Shown here one piece after another: positions 32,907 to 57,563 of a stretch of 64,000 bases of DNA. Positions within the stretch are counted from its first letter, which is position 1. The number at the start of each line of letters is the position of its first letter. The translations under genes were made by a program, and so were the position numbers. The stretch comes from Streptomyces taklimakanensis. Lineage in GTDB: Bacteria > Actinomycetota > Actinomycetes > Streptomycetales > Streptomycetaceae. The stretch spans positions 2,978,001 to 3,042,000 of the forward strand of contig NZ_WIXO01000001.1 of assembly GCF_009709575.1 (NCBI RefSeq), written 5' to 3'. The notes under the pieces are model-generated. The model did no database searches. It was given only the letters and a program-made list of their open reading frames with translations, and had not been told where the DNA came from.

Positions 32907-34825
<1,919 letters not shown>

Positions 34826-39357: not shown

Positions 39358-40194
39358 GCATCTGGCACGGCTGCCCTTCGTCCCGAACTACTGGCTGAGG
39401 GGGCATTGAAGGTCAGTGGGCTGGTCGGAAGGTTGCTGATGGCCGTTGGTGGTCGGCTGAGGTCAGGGAGGTTGCTGTACTTCGCTGCTGTACCGCTCGT
39501 GGCAGCACCGGACCGGCATTCAGCCGATACGATGCGCAGGCTAGGCATCGTTCATGCGATGTGGGAGGGGCAGTGAGGATCAAAGATCCGAAGTACCCGG
39601 CAGCGGTCGAAGCGGCCGTAGAGATCCTGCGGAAGCGGGCCCGGCAGGGACAGACCATCACGTATGGAGATCTTAGCGCCGAGCTGGCAGCACAGGGCTT
39701 CGACTCCATCCCGCCTCACCGTGGGATCATGACCTACCTGCTCAGGGATGTCTGCCTCTACAGCAACGAGGACGGACGAGCACCGATGCTCTCGGCAATC
39801 GTGGTGAACAAGGCCAGCCGGGAGCCATCCGACCAGTTCTCCAGCCTTGCCCGAAGCCTTCCCTTCTCTCGGTCGGTCAACTGGAGCTGGCGAGACGAGC
39901 AGCAGAAGGTGTTCGCTCAGTACCGCGAAGAGTGACACGCCGCCCCGCGACACCCGCTTTAGGAGAGCGGTAGGGCCACGCCCGGCGTGACCTGCGGTCT
40001 CACGTCCTGGCCCTGTTCCCACCACTAACCGCTGTTGACCGTGGCTTACCTCTGCATCTGGCACGGCTGTGGCACGTCTGCACTTCGTGCCGAACAACCT
40101 CGGTCACTGAGGTCTCCTCGCCCGATCAGCTAGCCACCTAGAGCCGCTGACGGCCGGCCGCGGTCGCGCTGGTCGCTGTGCTCCGCTGCTGTAC
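39358..40194. repeat. Imperfect direct repeats flanking the small gene before the defence operon
   Basis: Copy A at 39358-39493 and copy B at 40054-40194 both begin with GCATCTGGCACGGCTG and end with GCTGCTGTAC, with patchy similarity between (CTTCG, CCGAAC, CTGAGG, GCTGA.GGCCG). They are about 700 bp apart, on either side of the 120-aa gene. They may be duplicated promoter regions or remnants of a cassette boundary. The gap 39936-40488 has no other feature I can support. Confidence 0.5.
39573..39935 (+). CDS. Small protein, possibly alkyltransferase-like (ATL/MGMT-type) winged-helix fold
   Basis: 120 aa from GTG 39573 with GGGAGGGG upstream. The pattern QGQTITYGDLSAELAAQGFD, then HRGIMTYLLRDVCLY and LSAIVVNKASREP resembles small proteins with a TYGxLA ... 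L(S/T)xIVVNK pattern, akin to the DNA-binding domain of O6-alkylguanine transferase-like proteins. No alkyl-acceptor PCHR Cys is present. It lies 550 bp upstream of the ATPase gene, within lower-GC DNA, and may be an accessory of the defence operon. Family assignment is tentative. Confidence 0.6.
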   Translation: MRIKDPKYPAAVEAAVEILRKRARQGQTITYGDLSAELAAQGFDSIPPHRGIMTYLLRDVCLYSNEDGRAPMLSAIVVNKASREPSDQFSSLARSLPFSRSVNWSWRDEQQKVFAQYREE

Positions 40195-40488
40195 AACACT
40201 CTGCAAGCACCAGGAAATAGCCCTGGTCGCCGGACGGCGGTTTCGGCTAACACATGACACTTCAGACAACCGCAACGGCAGGATGGGAGCACGTCCTGTG
40301 GCCATCATCTGCGTCAGCATGGTTACCAATGAGGGTGAGCTGTACATGTCCTACCTTCGGTGGAACCAGCCCGATAAGTCCAGGCTCAGAGCACGCTCAA
40401 CTCACTGGCAGTTGTCAGCATGAGCGACCTCCTCGTCGGACGGTGGTCGACGGATACTGTGTACGCAACTGCGGGAAGGGGAGGCAAA

Positions 40489-43488
40489 ATGGAAAATTTG
40501 TTCGGGATGGTCGAGCCACGCGACGACGTGTTGGCTGGTGAGCTCACGGAGTCGCGCTTTGCTGCGTCCCTGGAGGAGGTCATCGCTGGCACGGCTCCGG
40601 AGGCGTATAGCGACACCGAACACTTCTTCGCCGCAACCTATCCCTCGGCTGGTCTGAAGTCGCTCCTCAATGAGGCGCTTGGGCGCATCGGCGGCGGCAA
40701 GCCAGACGGCGCCAGTGTGATCCGACTGGAGACAAACCTTGGCGGCGGCAAGACCCACAATCTCATCGCCCTCTTTCACGCTGCCCGCGGGCAACTCGAT
40801 GCAGCGCGTGCGGCAGAGTTCATGGATGCCTCGTTGCTGCCAAGCGAGCCCGTCGAGCAGGTCGGCGCATTCGTTGGCACCAGCACCGGAGCACAGAGCT
40901 TCCCCGAGATCGCGGGCATCACGCCCCGCACCGCCTGGGGGTACCTGGCCCTCCAGGTCGGCGGAACGGCTGGGTACGAGTTTGTGCGGGCGGACGACGA
41001 GGCCCTAACGGCGCCTGGCTCGGATGCGATCAAGCGGCTGCTCGGCGATCGCCCGTCGCTTCTCCTCATCGATGAGATCGCCCGCTACTACCAGGTTGCC
41101 AAGGGCGTTCGCGTCGGCGAGAGCACACTCGCTCAGCAGACGACGGCGTTTCTGATGGCCTTGATGGAAGCCGTTGACGGCCTCCCTCGCGCAGTCCTCG
41201 TGATCACCACCACCGGCGTGACTGACGCATTCGGCGAGGCGACCAGTGACATCCTGGAGGCCGTAAACGAGGCTCGCTCCCTCATGGCTCGCAAGGAGCT
41301 CGTGCTGCGGCCGAGCGAGGAAGCCGACCTCCCCAAAATCCTCACGCGTCGTCTTTTCAAGCAGCGCGACAATGGCAGTGCTGCGGCGGAGGTTGCTCAG
41401 GCGTACGCAGAAGCGGCGGATACCGCCTACGCGAGCGGACTCGATCTGCCCGAGGGCATGGTCGGCACAGGCTGGGCGACGGAGATCGCTCGCACGTACC
41501 CCTTCCACCCGACGCTCATCAGGATTCTGGACAAGCGCCTGTCCACGATCCCGAACTTCCAGCGCACCCGAGGTGCGCTGCGGCTGCTCGCTCGTGTTGT
41601 CCGCCGACTGTGGGCACAGCAGCCTGAGCGCACCTACCTGATCCACCCCCACCACATTGATCTCAGCGAGCGGGTAATCGCCGAGGACCTCTCCAGCCGT
41701 CTTGAGCGCCCGCAATTCGAGCCGGTGATCCGCGCGGACATCGCCTCGCAGGCAAGGGCGGAGCCCTCGCATGCAGAGCGTGTCGATGAACGGATGGGAT
41801 CCTTCTACGCTCGCCGTTTGGCAACGTCGGTCTATCTGTACTCGCTCACCCGTGACGTCCCCGGCGTGCAACCGGCTGAGCTCTTCGGTGCTGCCCTGGT
41901 TCCGGGCGACGACCCGAACCTCTTGCAGAAGGCCCTCGACGGCCTTGAGGCAGCTTGCTGGTACCTGCACGCCGATGTACGCGGCTACCGGTTCTCGACC
42001 GAAGCATCCCTGGTGAAACTGATTCAGGAGGCCGAGAGCGAAATAAGCGTGACCAACGCGCGGAAGAAGGCCACCAAAATCCTCACCACCCAGTTCCGCG
42101 ACAGCACCCTCAAGGTGCGCCGACACTGGGAGGACGCTAAGGTTCCGGACAATGCTGCAGACGCCTGGCTCGTCGTCATGCACTGGGACGACTTCGGCGA
42201 CCCCCGCGGGGTGGATCCGCATGGCCCCACCCCGGCGAAGATTCAGGAACTGTGGGAACGGACCCCGGCTGGTGGTCTCCGCCAATACAAGAACCGCCTC
42301 GTCTTCCTCGCGCCTTCGCTGGGGACTCATGAGGCGATGGTCCGGGCCGTGAAGAAACACCTGGCGCTCGAAGAACTTTCCACGAGCTCAGACACCCTCA
42401 ACGCCCTTACGCCCGAGAAGCGCTCCGAGCTCAAGGACAGGGCCAAAGAGTCAGCACTCCTGGCTAGAGTCGCTGTCTGTAACCACGTCAACGTGTTGTA
42501 TGTACCCACCGCGCATGGGCTGGAAGCTGTCCAACTCGATCAGGTCACCAGCTCTTCGGTGTTTCCGAACCAGGCCGACGCGATCTTGGGGCGTCTCGCC
42601 GCTATGGAGAAAACACTCCGTGCTGGCGACAGGCCGCTGGATCCGGCTTATGTGAAGAACAAGCTGGGCGACCTGCTGAATCGGCCGCAGCCGACTGAGG
42701 AGCTGGAGCAGGCGTTTGCCCGGCGCTCCGATCTCAAGATGGTCTTCGACCGGATGCAGTTGGTCGCCCTGGTCAGTGCTGGCGTCCGCAACGGTGTGTG
42801 GGAGTACCAGGACCCGGATCGCGGAGACGACGGCTGGGCAACCAAGGATCGGCCGGGTGCAAGCTTCCGGATTGCAGCCGATGTATTCCTGCATCCGCCT
42901 GGTTCCGCCCCCGCCCCGGCTGAGCAGGTTTGCCCGCTCTGCGACACGGTTCACCCTGGGCGCGGGTGTCCGGATATTTTCGAAAAGGAAGACGGCGCTC
43001 AATCGCCTCTTCCTTCGGCTAAACCCACAACATTCACAGGTAGCGGTGCGGCTGGCAGCGCATTTGCCCAAGCGCGGAGCGCAGCGGCTGATAAGCAGCG
43101 TGAGAGTCTGTGTGAGCTGACGATCGGTATTGATCATCTCGGTGCAGGGGGCAGTACGGAACTGCTGCGCCTCCACTCGGTCGTGCCAGCAACAACGCTG
43201 GGCGCTGAATTGGTCTATGACGTGAAAGTTGTCGTCACCCTCGGGACTAATCACTCGCACGCAGCCAAGATCGAGTTCGTGGGTACCCCAGCTGACTACG
43301 CACCACTACGCGAGGCCATCAAGCAGTTGCTCGGGCCCCATGAGTCTGTAGTCAAGGCGTCGGTGACTGCTGCCTTCGCAGACCCGTTGCCGCTGTCCGG
43401 CGATGTTGTGGAACGGTTCGCTCAGGCGGCGCGAGACACCGGCCCAACGAAATGCACCATCACAATGCGTACCGAGGGCGACGGATGA
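40489..43488 (+). CDS. DUF499-type AAA ATPase of a defence operon
   Basis: 999 aa from ATG 40489 with GGGGAGG upstream; ATG 40420 is in frame but its extra 23 residues look unlike coding. Walker A is LETNLGGGKTHNLIALFHAA (about 80-95), Walker B LLLIDEIARYY (about 190-200), and GALRLLARVVRRLW is typical of DUF499 proteins. A CPLCDTVHPGRGC motif (Cys815, Cys818, His822, Cys827) could bind zinc. DUF499 ATPases are found with DUF1156 methylases and helicases in phage-defence loci. It overlaps the next gene by 4 bp. Confidence 0.85.
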   Translation: MENLFGMVEPRDDVLAGELTESRFAASLEEVIAGTAPEAYSDTEHFFAATYPSAGLKSLLNEALGRIGGGKPDGASVIRLETNLGGGKTHNLIALFHAARGQLDAARAAEFMDASLLPSEPVEQVGAFVGTSTGAQSFPEIAGITPRTAWGYLALQVGGTAGYEFVRADDEALTAPGSDAIKRLLGDRPSLLLIDEIARYYQVAKGVRVGESTLAQQTTAFLMALMEAVDGLPRAVLVITTTGVTDAFGEATSDILEAVNEARSLMARKELVLRPSEEADLPKILTRRLFKQRDNGSAAAEVAQAYAEAADTAYASGLDLPEGMVGTGWATEIARTYPFHPTLIRILDKRLSTIPNFQRTRGALRLLARVVRRLWAQQPERTYLIHPHHIDLSERVIAEDLSSRLERPQFEPVIRADIASQARAEPSHAERVDERMGSFYARRLATSVYLYSLTRDVPGVQPAELFGAALVPGDDPNLLQKALDGLEAACWYLHADVRGYRFSTEASLVKLIQEAESEISVTNARKKATKILTTQFRDSTLKVRRHWEDAKVPDNAADAWLVVMHWDDFGDPRGVDPHGPTPAKIQELWERTPAGGLRQYKNRLVFLAPSLGTHEAMVRAVKKHLALEELSTSSDTLNALTPEKRSELKDRAKESALLARVAVCNHVNVLYVPTAHGLEAVQLDQVTSSSVFPNQADAILGRLAAMEKTLRAGDRPLDPAYVKNKLGDLLNRPQPTEELEQAFARRSDLKMVFDRMQLVALVSAGVRNGVWEYQDPDRGDDGWATKDRPGASFRIAADVFLHPPGSAPAPAEQVCPLCDTVHPGRGCPDIFEKEDGAQSPLPSAKPTTFTGSGAAGSAFAQARSAAADKQRESLCELTIGIDHLGAGGSTELLRLHSVVPATTLGAELVYDVKVVVTLGTNHSHAAKIEFVGTPADYAPLREAIKQLLGPHESVVKASVTAAFADPLPLSGDVVERFAQAARDTGPTKCTITMRTEGDG

Positions 43489-43898
43489 GCCGAGCCGAGC
43501 AGTACACCGTTCTGATCACCCGTGATGAGGATGGGCGGATCGTCGCCGTCGACGTCGCTGCGGACGACCTCGACGGCGGCCACCGCAAGATCCATGTCAA
43601 TGGTGGGCGCGCCGCACACATCGCTGCCCCTCTGCAGGACGTCCTGCGCTCCGCCGGCCTACGCGGCCGAGACTGGGCCTCGTGTAAACCGATTGCGCTT
43701 GACCCCATGCTTGGGGCGCATGCAGAGCTCCTGCTACGTGCCGTGAAGCCGCTCCGTCGCACAGACCGGATCATCGACATCGCCGAGGGCGTGGCAGGGA
43801 TGAGCCGAGAAGAGGCCGCTTACTGGCACGCCCAAGTACAGCATCGCCATGGGCTCAAGGCGCTGCGCATCCTCCTTGACGGCGGCAAGCGTCGGTGA
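43485..43898 (+). CDS. Hypothetical small protein of the defence operon
   Basis: 137 aa from ATG 43485, coupled to the ATPase stop (ATGA). QYTVLITRDEDGRIVAVDVA suggests an N-terminal beta hairpin, and GMSREEAAYWHAQVQHRHGL with KALRILLDGGKR a helical C-terminus. I do not recognise the family with certainty; the same position in related operons is often filled by a small DUF protein. It may be a structural or specificity partner of the ATPase or methylase. Confidence 0.7.
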   Translation: MSRAEQYTVLITRDEDGRIVAVDVAADDLDGGHRKIHVNGGRAAHIAAPLQDVLRSAGLRGRDWASCKPIALDPMLGAHAELLLRAVKPLRRTDRIIDIAEGVAGMSREEAAYWHAQVQHRHGLKALRILLDGGKRR

Positions 43899-44094
43899 TC
43901 TCGCTCCCGCAACAGAGGATTGACGGCAGGGTGCTCGACGCATCGTTGCTGGCTGTTGCCGTTATGGGCGGGGCGGTAGATGCGCACAGGCGGGATGCCC
44001 AGCCAGTGTCACTGCGAGGTAGCATCCTGGCTCTTCGAACGTCTCAGGCAGGCCTCTGCTGGAAGAGGTCCATGACACATCTGGAAGACACGAT

Positions 44095-44119
44095 ACCCAG
44101 CAGCCGGGGGTTGCTGGGT
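44095..44119 (+). promoter_or_regulatory. Hairpin just before the methylase ribosome site
   Basis: An 8-bp stem (ACCCAGCA, 44095-44102, with 44112-44119) and 9-base loop end 5 bases before GGAGGAGG and 20 bp before the GTG start of the methylase. It could be a terminator or attenuator inside the operon; the 241-bp gap 43899-44139 has no supported gene. Confidence 0.45.
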
Positions 44120-44139
44120 GGTGCAGGAGGAGGCCGGCA

Positions 44140-47088
44140 GTGAGCCGCAGTTTGATCGAGCAGTGGTTGCCTGCCGCGACAATTGGCGCTGAGAGCCTAC
44201 GGGAGCGGGGAAGCGCCAAGGCATACCCGCCGATTAACTTTCTTCACGTTTGGTGGGCGAGGCGGCCTCTTATCGCCAGCCGTGCCGCTGTGCTAGGGTC
44301 TGCGCTTCCTGCCTGGCCGTCTCCAAATGAGGCCGAGCGTGACGTGGACGCAGCACGGATCCTGGATGGCCTGCGCAAGGAATTCCCAGAAGGCGAAGAT
44401 GAATACCATGCGTGGTTCGTAAAGATTCTAGGAATTCTCGGAGACCCTGTTGCTGGCCGGAAGGCCATCAAGGAAGCACTGGCAAGGGGTGTCAGGACAG
44501 ATGGAAATGCGTACGGCTACGATCGTGCGTTCACTGTTAACCCTGACCAGGAAACCATTGATCGCATCCATCGACTCGCCTCCCTCCGCGCTGGCGAAGA
44601 ATCCACTGAGAGCCGGTCTGCAGTACTCGATCTGTTCTCTGGGGGCGGCTCGATTCCTTTTGAGGCGGCCCGCTATGGATTTAATTCAGTAGCAAATGAA
44701 CTGAATCCAGTAGCCTCTGCAATTCTCCAAGGGACTGTGGTCCTTCCAGGTAATCTAGGGCCTTCCTTTTCTCAGATTATTGCCGAGTGGGGAGAGAAGT
44801 GGTCTGAGCGCATTCGGAAGCGCCTGGAAAAATTCTTCCCCACCAAGAACCCTGATGAGCGTCTGGCTTACATCTGGGCACACACGGTGCTGTGCCCAAC
44901 CACGGGGCGGTCGACACCGTTGGCACCCGACTTCTGGCTAGTGAGATCAACTCCCGGAAAAAGTGTTGCAGTTGCCCTTGAAGTCGAGCCTGGATCCGAC
45001 ACCTATCAGCTCCGCATCGTTGAGGGGCCCGAGGCCAAACTGTGGGGTACCCGATCTACCTATAAGGGTGGTACCGCAACCAGCATCTGGACTGGCGAAA
45101 CCATCTCTGGTGATTATATTCGCCAGGCATCCCAATCTGGCAAAATGGGCCAGATGCTTCTCGCCGTAGCCGTAACTCGAGCTGGAAAAAACGGTCGAAA
45201 GTTTCGCACGCCTAACACCAGTGACCTAGCCGCAGTTTCCGCTGCAGAGAAGGAACTTGCTGCACGGATGCCAGGCTGGGAAATTTCCGACCTTATTCCC
45301 GCAGAGGCGATCGACAGCGTATCCAATTACGATCGCGGGCATCGAATGTACGGAATTAATAAATGGTCTGATTTCTTCTCGACTCGCCAACTTCTCGCTA
45401 ATGTGACAGCGCTTGAGGAGTTGCGGACCATTGTAAGCGAGGCCCGCGAGAAGATCGGCAGTGAGAAGGCAAAGGCTCTTGCTCTATATCTCGCCTTTGC
45501 CCTTGACAAAATGGTCGACTACAACAGTAGGCAATGTAGTTGGGATTCCTCTCGGTCCAAAATTAGGAGCACTTTCGACAAGCATAACTTCAACTTCAAG
45601 TGGTCGTTCGCGGAATTTGACGGCGCGCATGCTCTGGCGCCATGGGCAGTCAACAATGCGGTCGTGAATCACAAGAAGATCTCCGCGCTCATGTCTCAAC
45701 GGGAATCCCTCTTCTCGGATGCCCGGAAATCGACGGCGCGAGTAATCCGGGGATCGGCCACCGATCTCCCGCTTGAGGATTCATCGATGGACGCTATCGT
45801 CACAGATCCTCCATATTATGACAATGTCATGTATGCGGAAATCTCTGACTTCTTCTATGTTTGGCTCAAGCGGGCCCTGCGTGATACCTGGCCTCAATTT
45901 GTCGACCTGGTGTTGACCGATAAGGCTTCGGAAGCCGTTGCGAATCCCGCAATCTTCAAGGATGTCGCTACTGCGACACGGAAGAAGGGGCGTAGTGCTA
46001 AAACAGGGAAGACCGCTGTAGAGCTAGCCGATGGTCGATACGAAGAGTTGCTGCGTCAATCGTTCAAGGAATCGCACCGTGTGCTAAAGGAACGGGGAGC
46101 CTTGACGGTAATGTTCACGCACAAGCGGATTGATGCTTGGGACACTCTGGGAGCAGCTCTACTCGATGCAGGATTTTCCATCAATGCATCCTGGCCGGTG
46201 CACACCGAAAGCGAGCACTCCACGCATCAAGCAAAGAAGAATGCGGCACAGTCAACAATCTTCCTGGCCTGCCGTAAGCGAATGAATAGCGAACCGGCAT
46301 ATTGGGCAGATATTCGACATGAGGTCGAGCGTGCTGCAGAAGAGGCGGCGACTCGATTCGCTGCCGAAGGAATGACTGGCGTGGACCTCACAATTGCCAC
46401 TTATGGGCCTGTGCTGTCTGTGCTATCAGAGCGCTGGCCTGTCTACACCGGAAAACTGGATGACGAGGGAAACCCTGAAGTGCTGCGACCTGATGCGGCG
46501 CTTGATCTGGCGCGAGAGAAGGTCGCCTCGCTGAAGAAGCGACAGTTGCTCGGCGGTCGGGACATCGACTTCGACCGAGTCACTGATTGGTACCTGCTTG
46601 CATGGAACGACTTCGCTGCCGCAGAATTCCCGTACGACGAAGCTCGTAAGTTGTCGATCGCGACGCACCTAGACCTCGATGATCTCGCCAAGCGGCGCAA
46701 GGTAGTCAGACAATCGAGCGGCAGTGTCACCCTGCTGACGCCGACGCAGCGAGCTACGGCGGGTGGCCTTGACCCGGACGCTGGGGAGTATGACAGCTGG
46801 ATCGATCGGCTGCACGCTCTGATGCTGATCTACGACTCGGAGGGGCTCGGGGCAGCCAAAGCCTGGCTGAACCGCACTCGCCTGGCTGACGACCCCACGT
46901 TCACTGCAGTTTTCCGTGCAGCGTTGCATGCGATTCCCCGAGTGAAGGATAAGGGTGATTTTGCACGGCCTGAAGCACGAATTCTCGACAGCTTGCGCAC
47001 CGCTCTTTTCGATCACGTAGAGGCGCCAGCTGATGAGAGCGACCTCGCTGCCCTGGACGACCAGCAGGATGTGCTCTTCGATGTCTGA
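44140..47088 (+). CDS. DUF1156-type adenine-specific DNA methyltransferase
   Basis: 982 aa from GTG 44140, preceded by GGAGGAGG. N-terminus LIEQWLPAATIGAESLRERG and FLHVWWARRPLIASRAA is the DUF1156 signature. The SAM site is LDLFSGGGSIPFEA (from 164), and the catalytic motif TDPPYYDN is at about 555-562, followed by YAEISDFFYVWLKRALRD. The DPPY motif means N6-adenine (or N4-cytosine) methylation. Only one Cys remains of the usual zinc-ribbon. Third-position G/C is clearly lower than in host genes. Its 3' end overlaps the helicase gene by 8 bp. Confidence 0.87.
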   Translation: MSRSLIEQWLPAATIGAESLRERGSAKAYPPINFLHVWWARRPLIASRAAVLGSALPAWPSPNEAERDVDAARILDGLRKEFPEGEDEYHAWFVKILGILGDPVAGRKAIKEALARGVRTDGNAYGYDRAFTVNPDQETIDRIHRLASLRAGEESTESRSAVLDLFSGGGSIPFEAARYGFNSVANELNPVASAILQGTVVLPGNLGPSFSQIIAEWGEKWSERIRKRLEKFFPTKNPDERLAYIWAHTVLCPTTGRSTPLAPDFWLVRSTPGKSVAVALEVEPGSDTYQLRIVEGPEAKLWGTRSTYKGGTATSIWTGETISGDYIRQASQSGKMGQMLLAVAVTRAGKNGRKFRTPNTSDLAAVSAAEKELAARMPGWEISDLIPAEAIDSVSNYDRGHRMYGINKWSDFFSTRQLLANVTALEELRTIVSEAREKIGSEKAKALALYLAFALDKMVDYNSRQCSWDSSRSKIRSTFDKHNFNFKWSFAEFDGAHALAPWAVNNAVVNHKKISALMSQRESLFSDARKSTARVIRGSATDLPLEDSSMDAIVTDPPYYDNVMYAEISDFFYVWLKRALRDTWPQFVDLVLTDKASEAVANPAIFKDVATATRKKGRSAKTGKTAVELADGRYEELLRQSFKESHRVLKERGALTVMFTHKRIDAWDTLGAALLDAGFSINASWPVHTESEHSTHQAKKNAAQSTIFLACRKRMNSEPAYWADIRHEVERAAEEAATRFAAEGMTGVDLTIATYGPVLSVLSERWPVYTGKLDDEGNPEVLRPDAALDLAREKVASLKKRQLLGGRDIDFDRVTDWYLLAWNDFAAAEFPYDEARKLSIATHLDLDDLAKRRKVVRQSSGSVTLLTPTQRATAGGLDPDAGEYDSWIDRLHALMLIYDSEGLGAAKAWLNRTRLADDPTFTAVFRAALHAIPRVKDKGDFARPEARILDSLRTALFDHVEAPADESDLAALDDQQDVLFDV

Positions 47089-50000
47089 GGCGAACTCGGC
47101 GGCGCGGCCTGGGCTGAAGGGCTTGGACCTGAAGCTTGGCTACGACTCGAGCGACCGTATCCTGGAGACGTTCTACGTGCCCGCCCTGTCCCGGGCAGTG
47201 CGGTATGACCGGTCGGTTGGTTATTTTCGGTCATCGTCGCTGAGCGTTGCAGCGCGGGGACTGTCGCGGTTCGTCAACGGTGGCGGGCGTGTGCGGCTGC
47301 TCTGCGGTGCGGAAGTAAGTCCTGGGGACCGAGAGGCTCTCCTTGGCGAGACTGCCATCGGGCCAGCGTTCGCCAAAAAGCTCGCAGACGCGCTGGTCAC
47401 CGAGTCGGAAGTAGACCGCCGACGTCTGGAGGTACTGGCCTGGCTGGCTAGGGAAGGGCGCCTCGAAGTACGGATTGCCATCCCGATCGATCGCGACGGA
47501 ATGCCGAGGATCGGCAGCGACATGGACCCCTATTTTCACGAGAAGATCGGAGTTCTGTGGGATAGCATCGGGGACGGGGTCGCCTTCCAGGGGTCCGTCA
47601 ACGAGTCCGCGCAGGCGTGGACCCGCAACTTCGAGTCGTTCTCGGTCTATCCGTCCTGGACGGAGGCTGCCACGTACTTCAGCCATTGGAAGCTGAAGTT
47701 CGAAGAACGCTGGGCTGGCCGGATGGTCGGTTTCAAGGTGTACCCGCTGCCCGATGCGGCGGCGGAACGCCTGCTCAGCATGGCGCCGGACGTCCTTCCG
47801 GGAGAACGAGACCCGGAGGAACCGGAGCCAATGGGCGACGATGCCGTTGTCGCCCGATACCTGCAAGTGGCTCCCGCCCTCGTAGGTGCTGAGGCGCTGC
47901 CGGTCGCCACCACAGGCATCACGCTCTTCCCTCACCAGCAGCAGGTGGTCGAACGGCTCGCTGGACTCTACCCGCGGTCGTGGCTTCTGGCGGACGAGGT
48001 CGGGCTCGGTAAGACGATTTCCGCTGGCATGTCGTTGCGTCGCCTCTTGCTGTCGAAGCGTGTCCGTCGTGCTCTGATCCTCGCGCCTGCCAACGTCTGC
48101 CGTCAGTGGCAAGATGAGCTTTTTGAGAAGTTCGGCCTATGGGTTCCTCGGCTCGACGGGGGAAAAATCTACGGTGTTCATCCAAAAGACGTACGAGTAA
48201 TCCCCTCAGGCCAAAGCCCTTGGGAGTCCGCCGATGTCTTGATCGCCTCCAGCCATCTGGCGCGCCGGCCAACCGAACAGAAGCGACTCCTTGCGAACGG
48301 GCCGTATGATTTGGTGATTGTTGACGAGGCGCACCACGCACGTCGCACTCACATCGATGAGAATGAATACCGCCCGGGACGGTTGCTGGAACTGCTCGAC
48401 CGCATCACTCAGCAGGGCGCGGCGAAGGCGTTGTGGCTGCTGACCGCTACACCGATGCAGGTTGCTCCTATCGAGCTACGCGATCTGCTCGTGCACGTGG
48501 GATTGCAAGGTCCCCTGGCCGACCCCCGAGCATTTGAAAAGTACTTCCGCGAAGTTGGCAAAGGGGACGGTCCAAAGGATCCTAAGACGGCCTGGTCCTG
48601 GTTGGACCAGACACTGCGGGACACACCCCGCCTGCCGCGAACTGCTGCCGAAGATGCATTCTTGCGGCAGACCAGGGAACGGCTGGGACCAGTTGTTGCT
48701 GCGCGGATTGAGAAGTTCGGCACCGGCGACCTGAGCGGTGAGGAGATCGTCAGGGAGCTGGCACCGGAAGGGCGCGCAGCTCTGCGAGGGTGGCTCTCCC
48801 TGCTCAGTCCTGTCGGACAGTTTGTCACCAGGCACAGCCGCGAAACGCTGAAGATGTATCGGGATCGCGGCCTGCTCACAGAGAATCTCGCGGACCGGGA
48901 TACCAAGCCGATCGTCATTCCATTCAGGGATGAGGAGCAGGAGCTCTACGATGAGCTTGACGACCTCATTGACCGCCTCATGGCAGCGCACGGCAGCAGG
49001 CGCGGCGCTGGCTTCGTGCTGACGGTCTACCGTCGGCGTCTCACCTCCTCGTGGGCTGCGATCCAGTCCACTCTCACGAAGAGGCTTAACCGCGAGAAAC
49101 TCGCGCTGGATGACGACCAGGCTGTGGAGGACCTGGAAGAAGCATGGAACGATGCGGGCCTGGAGACTGGCGATGGGCACCGGGTCAACGACGTTCAGGC
49201 GCTGCCGCTGACGCCTGCGGAAATAGACGATATCCGTGGCTACATTGACCGAATGCAGCACGTTCCGGACTCGAAGTTCGATCGGCTGCGTTCCGACCTC
49301 AACGCGGCGCGAGGGCGTGGTCATTCGACCATCGTCTTCACCCAGTACACCGACACACTTACGTACCTCCGCAACAAACTCGTTGGCGCCTATCGCTCCC
49401 AGCTTGCGACCTTCACCGGTGAGGGTGGTCAGGTCTTCCGGGAGGCCGAAGGATGGGTCGACATCTCCAAGCGCGACCTCGTTGACGCCGTACGGTCTGG
49501 GAGGGTGACGGTGCTCCTGGCCAACGACGCGGCCAGTGAAGGTCTCAACTTGCAGGCGTGCAGCTACCTCATCAACTACGACATGCCCTGGAACCCCATG
49601 CGTGTCGAGCAGCGCATCGGGCGAGTGGACCGCTTGGGCCAGGCTCGTAATGTCGTGCACATCCGGAGTTACTTCATACCGAACACGGTCGAGCAGGATG
49701 TTTACGCCGCACTTGCCGGGCGAATCGACGACTTCAGGCAGTTGCTAGGGAAGCTCCAGCCGATCCTAGGTGCGACAGAGCATGCCTTTCAAACCATCTT
49801 TAGGGCACCCAAAAGCGAGCGGGCAACAGTGCAGCAAGAGGCGATCAATGCGCTGGTCAACCAGATCGACCAATTGCGTCAAGAGGGTGTCGATTTCGGC
49901 GCGGAAGATCCGATGCCTTTGCCCATTCATGCGCCTTCGCCGGTCACGCTGGAAGATCTTAGAGAGGTTCTCGTCGAGCGGTTCGCTGCGGTGCTCGATA

Positions 50001-50680
50001 AGGAAGGACGTCCTGTGACATTCGATCCTTCCCGCGCATCGCGCGACGGTGAGAGCTGGACTGCGTTGGCAACCTATGGCCACCCGGCTCTAGCCGAAGC
50101 TCTTGCCCGCCGAGCTGGCCCGAATGTCCCTGATGATAGCGCCCTTGTCATCACTGGTGATGGGGCATGGCCCACTGTTGCGGTACGAGCTGACCGTACT
50201 CCCCCCGTGCCTGTCCAAGGGCTAAGGGACGTGGACTCGCTTGGTGCGGCAGCCGCCCGTGGCCAGGCCGAGGAGGAAGCCAACAACATCAGGATTCATG
50301 CGGCGCGTAAGCAGCGTAACTATGAGGACGCGCTTGCTACCACCAGGAGACAGCAGGTTCTGTCCGGTATCCATATGAAGTTCGTTGAGCTCGTTCACGA
50401 GGCTCTCGCTAGCGGATGCGCAGCTGCCCGTTACGACGGTGGCGTCAAGGTTGATCCGATCACCGTATGGCACAAACTCAATGGAGAGACGACTATCTGG
50501 GGATATGCGGACGCGACTCGTAAGAAACTAGGTATTCCGTTGGCTCAGCTCATCCCGGCTCGACTTAGTACTCAAGTAGAGCCGATTAGTCCAGACGAAT
50601 GGGATGAACGCCGACGTGCTCTAGGGCTTCAGCTGCGGGAGTTGATGGTTTCACTGCGGGCAGCTATGTTTAAGGGATAA
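47081..50680 (+). CDS. PLD-domain SNF2-family helicase of the defence operon
   Basis: 1199 aa from ATG 47081, overlapping the methylase. The first 250 residues are a phospholipase-D-like domain (VPALSRAVRYDRSVGYFRSS, GGRVRLLCGAEVS, HEK at 153-155, FQGSVNESAQAW). The SNF2 motor follows: LADEVGLGKTISAG (Walker A Lys311), VDEAHHAR (Asp415), LTATPMQ, then NDAASEGLNLQACSYLINYD and QRIGRVDRLGQ (about 844). The C-terminus is helical. It could translocate on and cut or remodel unmodified invader DNA. A single HxK motif means nuclease action would need a dimer. Confidence 0.88.
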   Translation: MSEANSAARPGLKGLDLKLGYDSSDRILETFYVPALSRAVRYDRSVGYFRSSSLSVAARGLSRFVNGGGRVRLLCGAEVSPGDREALLGETAIGPAFAKKLADALVTESEVDRRRLEVLAWLAREGRLEVRIAIPIDRDGMPRIGSDMDPYFHEKIGVLWDSIGDGVAFQGSVNESAQAWTRNFESFSVYPSWTEAATYFSHWKLKFEERWAGRMVGFKVYPLPDAAAERLLSMAPDVLPGERDPEEPEPMGDDAVVARYLQVAPALVGAEALPVATTGITLFPHQQQVVERLAGLYPRSWLLADEVGLGKTISAGMSLRRLLLSKRVRRALILAPANVCRQWQDELFEKFGLWVPRLDGGKIYGVHPKDVRVIPSGQSPWESADVLIASSHLARRPTEQKRLLANGPYDLVIVDEAHHARRTHIDENEYRPGRLLELLDRITQQGAAKALWLLTATPMQVAPIELRDLLVHVGLQGPLADPRAFEKYFREVGKGDGPKDPKTAWSWLDQTLRDTPRLPRTAAEDAFLRQTRERLGPVVAARIEKFGTGDLSGEEIVRELAPEGRAALRGWLSLLSPVGQFVTRHSRETLKMYRDRGLLTENLADRDTKPIVIPFRDEEQELYDELDDLIDRLMAAHGSRRGAGFVLTVYRRRLTSSWAAIQSTLTKRLNREKLALDDDQAVEDLEEAWNDAGLETGDGHRVNDVQALPLTPAEIDDIRGYIDRMQHVPDSKFDRLRSDLNAARGRGHSTIVFTQYTDTLTYLRNKLVGAYRSQLATFTGEGGQVFREAEGWVDISKRDLVDAVRSGRVTVLLANDAASEGLNLQACSYLINYDMPWNPMRVEQRIGRVDRLGQARNVVHIRSYFIPNTVEQDVYAALAGRIDDFRQLLGKLQPILGATEHAFQTIFRAPKSERATVQQEAINALVNQIDQLRQEGVDFGAEDPMPLPIHAPSPVTLEDLREVLVERFAAVLDKEGRPVTFDPSRASRDGESWTALATYGHPALAEALARRAGPNVPDDSALVITGDGAWPTVAVRADRTPPVPVQGLRDVDSLGAAAARGQAEEEANNIRIHAARKQRNYEDALATTRRQQVLSGIHMKFVELVHEALASGCAAARYDGGVKVDPITVWHKLNGETTIWGYADATRKKLGIPLAQLIPARLSTQVEPISPDEWDERRRALGLQLRELMVSLRAAMFKG

Positions 50681-51133: not shown

Positions 51134-51907
51134 TCAGCCGGTGGGCTGGGCCTGGTGGGGGCTGTCGGCGGTGATGCGGTAGGCGAGTTGGGCGCGGTCG
51201 CCGCTGGTGGTGAGCTCTTCGAGGATCAGCGGGCGGTCGTCGCGGCCCAGGGTGGTGCGGGTGGTGTGGATGACCGGGGTGGCGTCGGGGAGCTGGAGCG
51301 TGGTGCGCTCGTCGGGCAGCGGCATGCGGGCGCGGGTGGTCTCGGTCCAGGACAGGGTGTGTCCGGCCTCGGTGAGCAGGGCGTAGATTCGCGCGGGCTC
51401 GGTGTCGGGGTGCTCGGCCAGTGCGGTGCCCTCGGCGGTGGCGAACGGGATCAGGGTCCGGTGCAGGGCGCGGGTGCCGGTGGCCGGGTCGGTCAGGAGT
51501 CGGTCGACGCCGAAGAGGGCTTCGCCTTCGTCCAAGGCGAGGAGCGGGCCGGTGGTGGCCGTGGTCTTGGTGCGGTAGACGCTGGGCTCCTCGGCGGTCT
51601 TCCATGCGTCGTGGCCGGTGGTGAAGTGGCCTGCGGTGTCTCGGGTGACGGTGCGGTCGATGGTGAGGACCGGGGTGGGGGCGCCGCGGACGAAGCTGCC
51701 CTTGCCGTGGATGACGTCGATGAGTCCTTCGCTGCGCAGGGCGGCGATCGCATTGCGCACCGTGGGACGGGAGACCTGGTAGCGGGCGATGAGCTGGGCC
51801 TCTGAGGGCAGCGGTGCGCCCGGCGCGAACTCCCCGGATGCGATGGCGTCGCGGATGGCGGCGGCCACCTGCTTGTAGAGCGCTCCGGGGCGCTGGATCT
51901 CTCCCAT
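51134..51907 (-). CDS. GntR/HutC family repressor, KorSA-like
   Basis: 257 aa from ATG 51907 (MGEIQRPGALYKQ). The winged helix is clear (VAAAIRDAIASGEFAPGAPL, PSEAQLIARYQVSRPTVRNA, LIDVIHGKGSFVRG), followed by a UTRA ligand domain (DRLLTDPATGTRALHRTLIP). In pSAM2 and related AICEs the KorSA repressor of this family controls transfer and replication genes. Here it is divergent from the transfer operon, with a pair of repeated operators between them. The frame runs on upstream but without a good start. Confidence 0.87.
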   Translation of the reverse strand: MGEIQRPGALYKQVAAAIRDAIASGEFAPGAPLPSEAQLIARYQVSRPTVRNAIAALRSEGLIDVIHGKGSFVRGAPTPVLTIDRTVTRDTAGHFTTGHDAWKTAEEPSVYRTKTTATTGPLLALDEGEALFGVDRLLTDPATGTRALHRTLIPFATAEGTALAEHPDTEPARIYALLTEAGHTLSWTETTRARMPLPDERTTLQLPDATPVIHTTRTTLGRDDRPLILEELTTSGDRAQLAYRITADSPHQAQPTG

Positions 51908-51955
51908 AGGTGCCTCGCTGTCAGGTGAGGAGCGGCGCCGCTCGCTCGGCGCGAT

Positions 51956-52029
51956 GTCACTCGTCAGCATAAGTGGTTGCGCTTGGCCGTCAAGGCATGC
52001 ATAGTCGTCACTCGTCAGCACGAGTGACG
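51956..52029. promoter_or_regulatory. Paired operators between korSA-like gene and transfer operon
   Basis: The 14-mer GTCACTCGTCAGCA occurs at 51956-51969 and 52007-52020. The second copy belongs to an inverted repeat with 10-base arms (CGTCACTCGT at 52006-52015 and its complement at 52020-52029, spacer CAGC). The first has a degenerate right arm. Copies are 51 bp apart in the divergent gap, as expected for an autoregulating GntR repressor. Confidence 0.7.
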
Positions 52030-52073
52030 TCAGTGTAGTACTGGTGTCCGATCGGCCAAGGAGGCCACCACTG

Positions 52074-52415
52074 ATGCAGTCCATTCCCGTGGACACATCC
52101 CGGCTCGGCGTACTGCGGTGCGCCGTCGCGCCGGAACCGAAGATCGCGGACTTTGAGAAGCAGGAGGTCAAGAAGGACCGAGAGGGCAACACGATCTACA
52201 CCGTGGGCGTCATGGTCCGCCAGGAAGGGCGGCGGGTGTCGGTGATCGAGGTCGCAGTCACCGGAGAACCCAGGGGCGTCACCGAGGGGGCCGAGGTCCG
52301 CATCACCGGCCTGGAGGCGTTCGCCTGGTCCATGGGCGACCGACACGGCATCAGCTTCCGCGCGGCTGCCGTCACCCCGGTCACCCCGCCGTCCGGCAAG
52401 GGCGGTGGCGTCTGA
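52074..52415 (+). CDS. AICE-associated hypothetical protein upstream of the Tra pump
   Basis: 113 aa from ATG 52074, with AAGGAGG upstream. It looks like an OB- or beta-rich small protein (YTVGVMVRQEGRRVSVIEVA, GVTEGAEVRITGLEAFAWSM). A similar protein (often annotated only as hypothetical or SCO3933-like) precedes the FtsK-like transfer gene in many Streptomyces AICEs. The stop overlaps the next start (TGATG), so expression is coupled. Function unknown. Confidence 0.72.
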   Translation: MQSIPVDTSRLGVLRCAVAPEPKIADFEKQEVKKDREGNTIYTVGVMVRQEGRRVSVIEVAVTGEPRGVTEGAEVRITGLEAFAWSMGDRHGISFRAAAVTPVTPPSGKGGGV

Positions 52416-53719
52416 TGGCAGACCTGATCCCGGTCGTCTTAGCGCTGGTGGCGGTGGTCTGGCTGCTGGGTGGCGGCGAGTGGCTTCGCCGGCGGCGGCC
52501 GGATTGGCACTGGTACCTGACCGGCTACCCGCGCACCGCCGCGCGGGTGGTACTGACCTGGCGGAAGGTCGCACAGCTCAACGACCTGTCCGTCTCCTAC
52601 CGGCCGCCTCGGCGCGTGCTCGGCGCAGTGGTGGTCAAGGGCACGGCACTGCGCTCGACGCCTCCGCGGATCTCCTTCCCGTGCGCTCTGCCGAACGGCC
52701 TGTCGCTGCTGGTGCGGCTCCGCCCTGGGCAGACTCCGGCCCCGTTCGTGGAAGCGGCCGAAGCGCTGGCGCATGCCTGGGGCGTGCACAGTGCGCGGGT
52801 CACCTCCCCTCGGCGGGGCGTCGTGCTCATCACGGCGACGGCACACGATCCGCTCGATGATCCGCGCATGCCGGACGACACCGATCCGTCGTCGCTGCTG
52901 TCGGCGGTGGTCGGTGTGCTGGAGACCGGCCATGCGTGGGTGATGGACTTCCGGCGCGTACCGCACTGGCTGATCGTCGGGGCCACGCAGTCGGGCAAGT
53001 CCACGCTCCTGGCCCGGCTCGTCGCACAACTCGCGCCGCAGCCGGTCGCCCTGGTCGGTATCGACTGCAAGGGCGGCATGGAGCTGGGGTTGTTCGGGGA
53101 CCGACTGTCGGTGCTGACCACCTGTCGCCGTGAGGCGGTGGCCGTGCTGAGCGCGCTCGTCACCGACATGCAGGAGCGTATGCACCTGTGCCGCCGGGCC
53201 GGTGCCCGGTCCATCTGGGACCTGCCGGAGAAGTCGCGGCCGGTGCCCGTGGTGGTGATCGTCGACGAACTGGCGGAGCTGTATCTGACCAGCGGGTCGA
53301 AGGAGGACCGGGCGGAGGCCGAACAGTGTTCCAGTTACCTGCTGCGGCTGGCCCAGCTCGGCGCGGCCCTGGGGGTGCACCTGGTGGTCGCCGGACAGCG
53401 GGTCGGCTCCGACCTGGGGCCGGGCGTGACCGCGCTGCGGGCCCAGCTCACCGGACGCATCTGCCATCGGGTCAACGATCCCGGCACGGCGGAGATGACC
53501 CTGGGCGATCTCCACAAAGACGCCGTGATCGTCGCGCAGACCATCGGCACTGGACAGAAGGGTGTCGCGGTCACCACCGATGACACCGACGGCTGGGTGA
53601 GGGGCCGCTCGCACCTGACCACTCCGGACGAGGCGCGGCGCATCGCCGCGGAGCACGCGGGCATCGCTCCGCGCCTGCCCATCCTGACCGCCGCTCTGGA
53701 CGGGTGCGAGCAGGGATGA
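52415..53719 (+). CDS. FtsK/SpoIIIE-type DNA translocase (TraB/TraSA-like transfer protein)
   Basis: 434 aa from ATG 52415. It begins with one membrane helix (IPVVLALVAVVWLLGGGEWL). The motor has Walker A VGATQSGKSTLLARLV (Lys195), VALVGIDCKGGMELGLF and Walker B VVVIVDELAELYL. In Streptomyces conjugation a single such hexameric pump moves double-stranded DNA between hyphae. Codon 9 is TTA (52439-52441), the rare bldA-read leucine codon, so translation may be limited to developing cultures. It overlaps the next gene by ATGA. Confidence 0.9.
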   Translation: MADLIPVVLALVAVVWLLGGGEWLRRRRPDWHWYLTGYPRTAARVVLTWRKVAQLNDLSVSYRPPRRVLGAVVVKGTALRSTPPRISFPCALPNGLSLLVRLRPGQTPAPFVEAAEALAHAWGVHSARVTSPRRGVVLITATAHDPLDDPRMPDDTDPSSLLSAVVGVLETGHAWVMDFRRVPHWLIVGATQSGKSTLLARLVAQLAPQPVALVGIDCKGGMELGLFGDRLSVLTTCRREAVAVLSALVTDMQERMHLCRRAGARSIWDLPEKSRPVPVVVIVDELAELYLTSGSKEDRAEAEQCSSYLLRLAQLGAALGVHLVVAGQRVGSDLGPGVTALRAQLTGRICHRVNDPGTAEMTLGDLHKDAVIVAQTIGTGQKGVAVTTDDTDGWVRGRSHLTTPDEARRIAAEHAGIAPRLPILTAALDGCEQG

Positions 53720-54086: not shown

Positions 54087-54173
54087 ATGGACGCAAGCCA
54101 CCCAGCCTCATCCATCCGAGCCGCTGCGGCGGCCCACCCCGGGAGGTCCCCACCATCACCGCCGAGTCCATGA
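54087..54173 (+). CDS. 28-codon leader reading frame coupled to rep
   Basis: ATG 54087 follows AAGGAGTG at good spacing and encodes MDASHPASSIRAAAAAHPGR then a Pro/Ser tail. Its stop TGA (54171-54173) overlaps the Rep start (ATGA). The rep start itself has no close ribosome site, so translation of this leader probably delivers ribosomes to rep. Confidence 0.55.
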   Translation: MDASHPASSIRAAAAAHPGRSPPSPPSP

Positions 54174-55612
54174 CCTCGGCTGACAGGCGCGCCGTGCTCG
54201 ACCGCGCGGCGCGCCTGCGCCATCTCTCCGGCGCCGAACGCGACATCATCCGCCTCGCCTCCGACCCGCTGTTCCCGCGCTGGCTGGAGCAGATCACCGC
54301 CACCGGCGGCTGCACACACCCCGTACACCTGGCGGGCTCCACCACCACCTACGACGCGCTCACCGGTGAAGTCCTGCACCACTACGACACCACGAACGAG
54401 CCGGGCGAGCGGCTGTCGGTCCGCTGCCGCAACCGCCGCTCCACCGTCTGCGCCCCCTGCTCCCGCCTCCACGCCGGGGACACCTTCCACCTGGTGCGCG
54501 CCGGACTGGTCGGCGGCAAGAACGTCCCCGACGACGTACGGGACCGGCCGCGGCTGTTCCTGACCCTGACCGCCCCCGGCTTCGGCCCGGTCCACCGCGC
54601 GACCGACGGCTCACCGTGCCGCCCCCGGCGGGCTGCCGACGAGTGTGAGCACGGGCGCCCGGCCGGCTGCCCGGCCGTGCACGACGCGTCCGATCCGCTC
54701 GTTGGCCAACCGATCTGCCCCGGCTGCTACGACTACTGCGGCCACGTGCTGTGGCACGCCTACACCGGGCGGCTGTGGAAGGCGTTCACCGACAACCTCT
54801 ACAACCACCTGGCCGCCCGTACCGGGCGCACCCGGACCGGGCTGCGCCGGGCGGTGCGCCTGTCCTACGCCAAGGTGGCCGAGTACCAGAAGCGCGCGGC
54901 CGTCCACGTCCATGCCGTGCTGCGCCTCGACGGCGCGGGCGGCCCGGCCATCGCGCCTCCGGCCTGGCTCGACGCCGACACCCTCACCCGTGCCGTGCAC
55001 ACCGCTGCGGCGGCCATCCGCCTGCCCACGGTCCACAGTGCCGCGCTCGGTGAGTACGTCCTGCGCTGGGGCACTCAGCTCGACGTCCGGCCGCTACGCG
55101 CCTTCGACGGCCCCGAAGGGCTGACCGACGACGCGGTCGCCGCATATGTGGCCAAGTACGTCACCAAGGGCGCCGCCGACACCGCCGCCGGCCTCGACCA
55201 CCGACTGACCGGCCCCGACGACCTGCACACCGCCCCGGTCTCCGCGCACATACGCACCCTCATGGCGACCTGCTGGCGCCTGGGCGGCCTGCCCGAACTG
55301 GAACCGCTGCGGCTGCGGGCCTGGGCCCACACCCTCGGCTACCGGGGCCACATCCTCACCAAATCCCGCGCCTACTCCACCACCTACGCGGCCCTGCGCG
55401 CCGAACGCGCCGAGTACGAACGGACCGCACAGGGCTCGGAGCTGTCCCCCGGCCCGGACACGGTCACCGATGCCCACTGGTGCTACGTCGGCTCCGGTCA
55501 CTCCCCCGGGGCCGCCCTCATCGCCGCGGGCATCGCAGAAGACCTGGCCCGGAACCGCGAGATCGCCCGTGCCGAGTTGGCAGCGGGCGACCTGGACGGT
55601 GGTGCGGGATGA
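54170..55612 (+). CDS. Replication initiator, RepSA-like rolling-circle type
   Basis: 480 aa from ATG 54170. The Rep fold shows RLFLTLTAPGFGPVHRATDG (motif 1), and an HUH-like motif AVHVHAVLRLDG (His246, His248), then YVAKYVTKGAADT with candidate catalytic Tyr. Cys pairs (RCRNRRSTVCAPCSRLH, CPGCYDYCGH) suggest zinc binding. RepSA-like proteins nick the AICE double-strand origin for replication of the excised form. The stop overlaps the next gene by ATGA. Confidence 0.87.
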   Translation: MTSADRRAVLDRAARLRHLSGAERDIIRLASDPLFPRWLEQITATGGCTHPVHLAGSTTTYDALTGEVLHHYDTTNEPGERLSVRCRNRRSTVCAPCSRLHAGDTFHLVRAGLVGGKNVPDDVRDRPRLFLTLTAPGFGPVHRATDGSPCRPRRAADECEHGRPAGCPAVHDASDPLVGQPICPGCYDYCGHVLWHAYTGRLWKAFTDNLYNHLAARTGRTRTGLRRAVRLSYAKVAEYQKRAAVHVHAVLRLDGAGGPAIAPPAWLDADTLTRAVHTAAAAIRLPTVHSAALGEYVLRWGTQLDVRPLRAFDGPEGLTDDAVAAYVAKYVTKGAADTAAGLDHRLTGPDDLHTAPVSAHIRTLMATCWRLGGLPELEPLRLRAWAHTLGYRGHILTKSRAYSTTYAALRAERAEYERTAQGSELSPGPDTVTDAHWCYVGSGHSPGAALIAAGIAEDLARNREIARAELAAGDLDGGAG

Positions 55613-55803
55613 GTCGTGGTTCCGACCGGAGAGCTGGCGAGGATTGGAGCGGGGGAGAGCGGGAGCCGACCGAGGAGGAGAAGGCGCGTGCGTGGATAGA
55701 ACACCACGTCCGCGAATCGCCCCCGTTCTCCGACGCTCAGTTGAAGCGCATGGGGGAGATCCTGGGTGTCATCCTCACTCGGAAGACCTCCACACCGGCC
55801 TGA
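55609..55803 (+). CDS. Small protein between rep and integrase
   Basis: 64 aa from ATG 55609, coupled to the rep stop. It is charged and helical (EPTEEEKARAWIEHHVRESP, QLKRMGEILGVIL). The last 29 bp overlap the convergent integrase gene. The place between rep and int is where an excisionase often lies in AICEs; with a serine integrase it could instead be a recombination directionality factor. Both are inferences. Confidence 0.65.
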   Translation: MSRGSDRRAGEDWSGGEREPTEEEKARAWIEHHVRESPPFSDAQLKRMGEILGVILTRKTSTPA

Positions 55804-57343: not shown

Positions 57344-57418
57344 GCGTGCCCCCTTGTCTGCGGTGACCTGCGGTGATGCATCCACCGTAGACCGTGTGGG
57401 GGCTCTGCTCATGTTCTT

Positions 57419-57430
57419 TTCGATGAAGAT
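57419..57430. other. attR: attR core of the integrative element
   Basis: TTCGATGAAGAT, identical to attL, followed at once by host thiC codons (CTCCCAGGACATCCG). It is 76 bp from the integrase start. Confidence 0.85.
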
Positions 57431-57563
57431 CTCCCAGGACATCCGTCGGGAGCACGGCGGCGACCTCGCCGCCGACGGGCTCGACCCGGAGGAGGGCATG
57501 CGGCGGAAGTCCGAGGAGTTCGCCGCGGCGGGCAACCGCGTCTACCTGCCCATCGCGGACTGA
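57420..57563 (+). pseudogene. thiC: Displaced native 3' end of thiC
   Basis: From 57420 the frame encodes SMKISQDIRREHGGDLAADG, then LDPEEGMRRKSEEFAAAGNR and VYLPIAD, the normal ThiC tail (47 residues), with host-like G/C third positions. It has no promoter or start of its own. Linked to 34671 it restores an uninterrupted chromosomal thiC. Its presence proves insertion in thiC rather than beside it. Confidence 0.93.

Follow-up and report, generated by a model that had tools for sequence, protein, structure and literature searches.

Background

In the main-text description of PMC12839542, BREX-related (BR) systems are defined as Type-1, Type-2 and Type-3, and a standalone DUF3780 protein is given for 98% of 1120 Type-2 BR taxa. 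The same text describes occasional fusions of DUF3780 to a reader domain, ASCH/PUA or RAMA. The DUF499 proteins of Type-2 BR/RL systems carry a C-terminal RRM and sometimes FnIII domains. The present work concerns an operon of four genes in a stretch of 64,000 nucleotides (hereafter the window) from Streptomyces taklimakanensis, for which the closest described kind is the Type-2 BR/RL system with an HKD-nuclease helicase, and in which a protein of another family, DUF7680, stands in the place of DUF3780. Type-2 BR, and with it the set of DUF499, DUF3780, DUF1156 and phospholipase D (PLD) proteins labelled 'anti-phage-associated' by NCBI, is presumably what Gao et al. 2020 called the RL system, which was reportedly tested against phages in that study.

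Hma (helicase-methylase-ATPase) was named in PMC8565338, in whose passages on these genes HmaB is a predicted m5C enzyme. Type-1 BR systems, as outlined there and in the main text of PMC12839542, have no small protein, an N-terminal TUDOR domain and mostly a C-terminal PD-(D/E)XK nuclease. ARMADA, as introduced in the corresponding part of PMC12458937, is of a different kind.

The operon and its proteins

The operon consists of the following genes, given with their coordinates in the window and their family matches:

40489..43488, + strand: DUF499 AAA+ ATPase, 999 aa (PF04465, E 1e-39; PADLOC family HmaC, E 2e-88)
43485..43898, + strand: DUF7680 protein, 137 aa (PF24728, E 1.8e-31)
44140..47088, + strand: DUF1156 DNA methylase of the N6-adenine/N4-cytosine type, 982 aa (PF06634, E 2e-14; HmaB, E 4e-81)
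47081..50680, + strand: HKD/PLD nuclease-SNF2 helicase fusion, 1199 aa (NF042964, E 2e-102; PLD_Helicase, E 4e-70; Helicase_C, E 2e-16; SNF2-rel_dom, E 5e-16)

An earlier note, made from the sequence alone, had placed four genes at these positions with an ATGA overlap, a 241-bp gap and an 8-bp overlap between them, all of which is borne out by family searches and by an open reading frame (ORF) check, in which the four frames are open on the + strand. The best start of the DUF499 gene is ATG 40489 with GGGGAGG directly upstream (an alternative in-frame ATG lies at 40420), and its stop overlaps ATG 43485 of the DUF7680 gene. The methylase starts with GTG 44140, preceded by GGAGGAGG, and its stop overlaps the helicase start, ATG 47081. 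A search for a sigma-70-like promoter in 39900-44200 found none, a result of little weight in this host.

The ATPase has an intact Walker A motif (GGGKT, residues 85-89) and Walker B motif (D195). In the methylase, the SAM motif GGG (168-170) is followed by DPPY (556-559), which we take to be the motif of amino-methylases. The helicase carries N-terminal HKD residues (H153/K155) and GSxN (171-174), together with GLGKT (308-312), DEAH (415-418) and QRIGR (844-848); the NF042964 match covers residues 41-912 of the longer frame of this gene, and Pfam PLDc_2 matches it at E 0.0012, under the family cut-off. Conservation of these motifs is complete among the relatives aligned, with Walker A invariant in 67/67 DUF7680-type and 11/11 DUF3780-type ATPases, and with DPPY (72/72), H and K of the HKD motif (66/66) and D and E of DEAH (59/59) kept in every DUF7680-type sequence.

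The operon thus resembles Type-2 BR/RL systems in its DUF499 ATPase, DUF1156 methylase and HKD-SNF2 helicase, in the small protein between ATPase and methylase, and in gene order and strand. It departs from them in the identity of the small protein, a DUF7680 member without a match to DUF3780 models in the place of the standalone DUF3780, and in the low scores of the other three proteins, which fall far under the NCBIfam equivalog cut-offs (235 of 1200, 231 of 1000 and 344 of 1100 bits). PF12635 (DUF3780) finds no match in the 137-aa protein or anywhere in its own genome, and PHROGs give none for this protein or for a 124-aa frame. DUF7680 is named nowhere in the literature searched; DUF3780 is named in a single paper of it, PMC12839542.

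Distribution of the two small-protein families

Loci for comparison were drawn from a methylase alignment, taking the best 80 of 539 relatives in genome contigs and 41 in viral contigs, and from plasmids, where six of 205 records with a methylase match and ten of 20 records with a DUF3780 match were chosen by hand. They were counted singly, not as independent lineages, and some are near copies. Among the 142 loci with at least one match to the profiles built here, DUF7680 occurs in 76 and DUF3780 in 12, and no locus holds both; DUF7680 is also absent from 28 further viral DUF3780 loci. Every methylase-search locus that combines DUF499, methylase, PLD and SNF2 also holds DUF7680 (62/62; 51 in genome contigs, 6 on plasmids, 5 in viral contigs). 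The window and two other loci (L004 and L005) are not among these 62, having been obtained by a route other than the methylase search. No fewer than 11 bacterial phyla contribute to the 76 DUF7680 loci, as does a haloarchaeal plasmid (L137), and the recurrence of the four-gene order across phyla indicates that the gene set did not arise by chance. Closer to the host, DUF7680 is found in 3/296 genomes of the phylum, where DUF3780 is found in 1/296, and in 3/199 genomes of the genus, the window's own genome being among the three each time. DUF7680 alone as a query in viral contigs gave no match.

As for the place of the two families, nine of the ten plasmid DUF3780 loci are ordered DUF499-DUF3780-DUF1156-PLD/SNF2 (in one the helicase is split, and two have additional genes in between), the tenth is interrupted by insertion sequences, and NCBI labels parts of most of these loci 'anti-phage'. 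It follows from the order of these nine that DUF7680 holds the place of DUF3780.

A further 34 methylase-search loci combine DUF499 and methylase without PLD and without either small protein. Nineteen of them are ordered SNF2-methylase-DUF499 and are taken, by their genes, for Hma/Type-1-like loci; seven are viral and ordered DUF499-methylase-SNF2, and in eight no SNF2 gene was seen. The remaining 26, leaving aside the five DUF7680 loci without detected PLD that are treated below, are partial: six have DUF7680 and 20 lack a small protein. Among the latter, six have PLD but no DUF499, and four of the six (L034, L055, L074 and L078) start at or near the methylase.

Some viral DUF3780 genes appear without partners. 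In eight of the 28 viral DUF3780 loci (L172:898-1401, as well as L158, L164, L167, L169, L171, L173 and L174), neither DUF499 nor DUF1156 is found within the fetched stretch, which reaches at most 9 kb to each side and in some cases far less. By eye, the neighbours of the L172 gene resemble phage recombination genes. A ninth such locus, L175, is a contig-end fragment only. These solo viral proteins are possible decoys or counter-defence factors.

DUF7680 as a probable remote homologue of DUF3780

The earlier note could not match the 137-aa partner to described families. As a member of Pfam DUF7680 it does belong to one, and DUF7680 is in turn probably a remote homologue of DUF3780. By ordinary models the two families are distinct: 56/56 representative DUF7680 proteins match PF24728 and 0/56 PF12635, the two DUF3780 models of PADLOC find 19/19 DUF3780 proteins and 0/56 DUF7680 proteins, and the anti-phage NCBIfam models give no match on the same 56. 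Profile-profile comparison yields scores of 35.6 and 35.5 (probability 67 and 70%) over 92 columns, collinear over the C-terminal two thirds. With the same query, the controls reach no more than 17.7 (60 column-shuffled targets), 18.1 (reversed target) and 18.3 (20 unrelated real windows). The conserved core reads REEAAYWLG...ALRxLL in DUF7680 and PEERWWL...GWRKALRxAL in DUF3780.

The structure model of DUF7680 (pLDDT 94.4) contains, with E for strands and H for helices, E6-13, E19-27, E33-39, H40-56, H61-65, E70-72, H74-87, H93-104, H108-118 and H123-136, i. e. a predicted fold of b-b-b-a-(a)-b-a-a-a-a. That of DUF3780 (pLDDT 89.2) contains E20-25, E32-38, E56-63, H64-84, E95-100, H101-114, H119-130, H134-148, H157-167 and a low-confidence end helix. 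Compared by the order of their elements, not by superposition, the models agree except for one short extra helix and the DUF3780 end, and their register is that of the profile alignment. This predicted order fits the four-stranded sheet and five helices given for DUF3780 in the main text of PMC12839542. Fold searches at E <= 0.001 returned nothing for the DUF7680 model in PDB and BFVD or for the DUF3780 model in BFVD. VIA-align on PDB gave weak rows only, the best being Z 4.0 for DUF7680 (7pze_B) and Z 3.8 for DUF3780 (Pur-alpha, 3nm7_B; 61 aligned, rmsd 3.5), and Pur-alpha chains turn up for DUF7680 too (Z 2.4 and 2.1). This resemblance between models is a lead toward single-strand DNA binding, not evidence for it. 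A weak match of Pfam RecJ_C in 15/56 DUF7680 proteins (best E 0.019) was not used.

Two quick, unrooted gene trees were built. In the DUF499 tree (112 rows; 68 DUF7680-type, 11 DUF3780-type and 33 without PLD), a branch with SH-aLRT support of 100 sets the DUF3780 rows apart from all others. They group with 62/68 DUF7680 rows (support 97) and, within this group, adjoin a nine-row DUF7680 lineage with a support of 87, which is not decisive. In the helicase tree, thinned from 91 rows to 66, a branch (support 100) likewise separates the DUF3780 rows, here 15, from the others, and the split between the two families amounts to a single change if L034, L055, L078 and L089, which have PLD and no small protein, are ignored. 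In these trees DUF3780 is a single compact branch, next to a DUF7680 that is more diverse and from within which it may have arisen.

Proposed mechanism and alternative explanations

Taken together, the locus is probably a DNA defence system that resembles restriction-modification and belongs to the HKD-helicase (Type-2 BR/RL) kind, with DUF7680 instead of DUF3780 as its fourth protein. By analogy with BREX-related systems, we infer methylation, DNA cleavage, a protein complex, a role for DUF7680 and restriction of unmodified DNA. The DUF1156 methylase would mark a certain motif in the host's chromosome and in the mobile element that carries the operon. The DUF499 ATPase with bound DUF7680, the latter acting as a small DNA-contacting adaptor or reader, may then form a scanning complex, a first candidate because the two genes overlap in ATGA. 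Unmarked incoming DNA would license the HKD-SNF2 protein for translocation and cutting. A wider proposal, speculative and improbable, would unite DUF7680 and DUF3780 in a single superfamily that serves HKD-helicase DUF499 systems as dedicated readers of the modification or as licensing subunits; DUF7680 would be its older and broader form, and the solo phage DUF3780 proteins would be decoys directed at such systems.

Several observations weigh against the assignment and against the homology of the small proteins. Seven viral loci (L118, L119, L122, L123, L124, L126 and L127) are ordered DUF499-methylase-SNF2, mostly with weak DUF499 matches, and no PLD or small protein was found in them. Five methylase-search loci have DUF7680 and no detected PLD; in all of them the fetched stretch stops no more than ~1.1 kb from the methylase. 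L047 and L089 have methylase and PLD with ~9 kb upstream that holds neither DUF499 nor a small protein. Moreover, the loci were gathered through the kin of the window's own methylase, so that the sampling favours them. Six DUF7680-type rows of the DUF499 tree (L049, L050, L051, L061, L091 and L093) fall outside the main group with long branches nearby and an unsure placement, and are perhaps another subtype or a long-branch artefact. With regard to homology, the hhalign probability on its own must be called borderline, the models were matched by element order, and hmmsearch between the two families gave no cross-match at E up to 10.

This missing cross-match also counts against the possibility that the locus is an ordinary Type-2 BR/RL system with a merely diverged small gene, the DUF7680/DUF3780 split being an artefact of how Pfam cuts families and the function being unchanged. 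Such an explanation is well conceivable if somewhat doubtful. It would account for the common gene order, helicase architecture, predicted strand/helix order and profile similarity, but sits less easily with DUF3780 rows that stand apart at 100% SH-aLRT in two gene trees and with the greater diversity of DUF7680 lineages in this sample. A DISARM or Hma locus, by comparison with which the earlier note had described the operon, is highly improbable, although a relation to DUF499/DUF1156 defence-type systems does stand. The helicase matches DrmD (E 4e-67) and HmaA (E 8e-57), and the PADLOC check proposed in that note, run on the four operon proteins and the product of a 120-aa gene upstream, returned HmaB and HmaC as the best families of methylase and ATPase; its DUF3780 models miss DUF7680-type proteins. 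DISARM, with which the operon has a methylase and a DrmD-like SNF2 helicase in common, was rejected since no separate DrmA or DrmB gene is present among the four, the DrmA model matching the helicase protein alone (E 1e-43, among the 25 listed of its 50 PADLOC families), and since a DUF499 ATPase is present. Strict membership in Hma was rejected as well: Hma/Type-1 BR, as described, has three genes for related helicase, methylase and ATPase without HKD domain or small protein, whereas here an N-terminal HKD nuclease and DUF7680 are added. The gene order also differs from SNF2-methylase-DUF499, which is found in 19/26 no-HKD loci with an SNF2 gene. BREX Type 3/Type-3 BR offers counterparts of ATPase, methylase and helicase, but PglZ is absent at the locus and the single PglZ match of the genome lies at C1:4938156, ~1.9 Mb away.

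Other explanations concern function. It is unlikely that the operon chiefly serves to keep its element in the population by shutting out competing plasmids and integrative elements, with phages not the main target. Its position as cargo of a pSAM2-like element and the presence of other DUF7680 copies on plasmids agree with this role, yet phage and plasmid targets are not separable by the data, and the proposed restriction-modification-like system would work either way. Of similarly low probability is a DUF7680 that acts as an immunity- or antitoxin-like regulator, restraining the nuclease or the ATPase, and not as a DNA reader. Its small size and the ATGA overlap with the ATPase gene, suggesting coupled translation, would suit such a regulator; the occasional reader-domain fusions of its DUF3780 counterpart in the main-text description of PMC12839542 rather fit a DNA-facing role.

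The gap between the DUF7680 and methylase genes

43899..44139, + strand: 241-bp gap, holding an 82-aa ORF and a hairpin (from the ORF list and folding)

The 82-aa ORF (43895-44143) was not called as a gene, given the shorter spacing in the closest relatives, the single occurrence of the stretch in the genome and a G/C fraction at third codon positions (GC3) of 0.67. The DUF7680 and methylase domains are 105-108 bp apart in the three closest relatives (L008-L010) versus 356 in the window. Directly 5' of the methylase ribosome-binding site lies a hairpin (~44094-44120; -25.3 kcal/mol for 44085-44145, z -2.6, with 1/200 shuffles equally stable), which, standing in a gap without counterpart in L008-L010, may control methylase translation.

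The window's gap is the same place at which other DUF7680 loci have taken up genes. Both genes lie on the + strand in 73 of the DUF7680 loci; in 26 of these the domain distance exceeds 600 bp, and the site is a recurrent insertion point, e. g. in L046:7114-8804, L031:4773-8889 and L014:6669-8885. Ten inserted proteins were picked and all ten match Pfam, including DarT and Macro (L046), AAA_21/OLD-like ATPases (L014, L056 and L073), Schlafen-AlbA_2 (L020 and L071, the latter copy lying between methylase and helicase), HSP70 (L031), a kinase with an ORC-CDC6-like part (L036) and a TPR protein with AAA (L037). These inserts fit the auxiliary effectors that are mentioned in the abstract of PMC12839542.

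The carrier element and its cargo slot

The operon is cargo of a pSAM2-like integrative element (AICE), 34789-57547, in the 3' end of a gene (33017-34825) that we take from its sequence to be thiC. The further features of the element are:

34789..34809, no strand: 21-bp direct repeat, left copy (attL-like), in the last codons of thiC
39573..39935, + strand: 120-aa gene with GTG start, at the edge of the cargo slot, a neighbour outside the defence system
51134..52192, - strand: GntR-family regulator, longest frame (PF00392, E 4e-21)
52415..53719, + strand: FtsK/SpoIIIE transfer protein, TraB-like (PF01580, E 8e-28)
54170..55612, + strand: pSAM2-type replication initiator RepSA (PF20199, E 2e-152)
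55775..57535, - strand: serine recombinase, longest frame (PF07508, E 6e-18; PF13408)
57527..57547, no strand: 21-bp direct repeat, right copy (attR-like), in a displaced, diverged thiC 3' tail

Since the left repeat lies in the last codons of thiC and the right repeat in a second thiC tail, the element spans ~34.8-57.5 kb. The repeat has only these two copies in the window, allowing up to three mismatches; the longest word common to the left region and a shuffled right region was 17 (60 shuffles). The true start of the GntR gene is probably inside its longest frame. An empty integration site was sought through the right flank in 41 genomes; in the stretches from three that were examined, the flank gene alone matched out of 20 window genes. 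RepSA, FtsK/SpoIIIE, recombinase, GntR and the flanking repeat confirm the mobile-element setting proposed earlier, and together with the family matches they support the view that such an element carries a defence-type operon with kinship to DUF499/DUF1156 systems. The operon is also lower in G/C than the host, as the earlier note had it: GC3 is 0.74 for DUF499, 0.74 for DUF7680, 0.58 for the methylase and 0.69 for the helicase, as against 0.94-0.95 in two host genes (thiC and a phosphatase at 61997). It is 0.88-0.92 in the FtsK, RepSA and recombinase genes of the element, 0.87 in GntR and 0.78 in the 120-aa gene.

The 120-aa gene is matched in 13/121 genomes of the genus, including its own. 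Its two nearest copies (86-87% identity), from G390 and G362, stand on related elements with other cargo. Judged by eye from the translations, the cargo proteins of one element are TIR-like and DUF4062-like, those of the second DUF262-like. The G390 element has APH, TPR, 120-aa, GntR, FtsK and Rep genes in the window's order with different genes between 120-aa and GntR, and its DNA similarity to the window ends at 39965 and resumes at 50770, just beyond the operon edges. These copies rule out the 120-aa gene as a component of the system, contrary to its inclusion in the set by the earlier note; it is a slot neighbour and no evidence for a new subtype, a proposal that holds in the modest sense of a DUF7680 variant of the HKD-helicase kind. 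Near five more distant copies, none of the 20 window genes compared was matched apart from the 120-aa gene itself.

In a related element (L206:6311-13281), the operon's place in the slot is taken by two proteins that by eye look TIR-like and, in the case of a 789-aa protein, DUF4062-like, possibly another defence cargo. The G390 element is flanked by a 45-bp repeat that by eye reads like a tRNA 3' end; related elements thus differ in attachment site, the 3' end of thiC in the window versus this tRNA-like repeat.

Implications

The 120-aa gene points to a cargo slot of pSAM2-like elements where genes other than it are exchanged. For the defence system itself, the definition of Type-2 BR in the main-text description of PMC12839542 rests on DUF3780, and the present comparison suggests a second, sequence-divergent family, DUF7680, in the same place across many phyla. 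As the tested PADLOC and NCBIfam models miss DUF7680, a large branch of a known anti-phage system may have been overlooked. If the two families are homologous, the defining subunit of these systems would be broader, and possibly older, than described, and its conserved core would offer direct targets for mutation.

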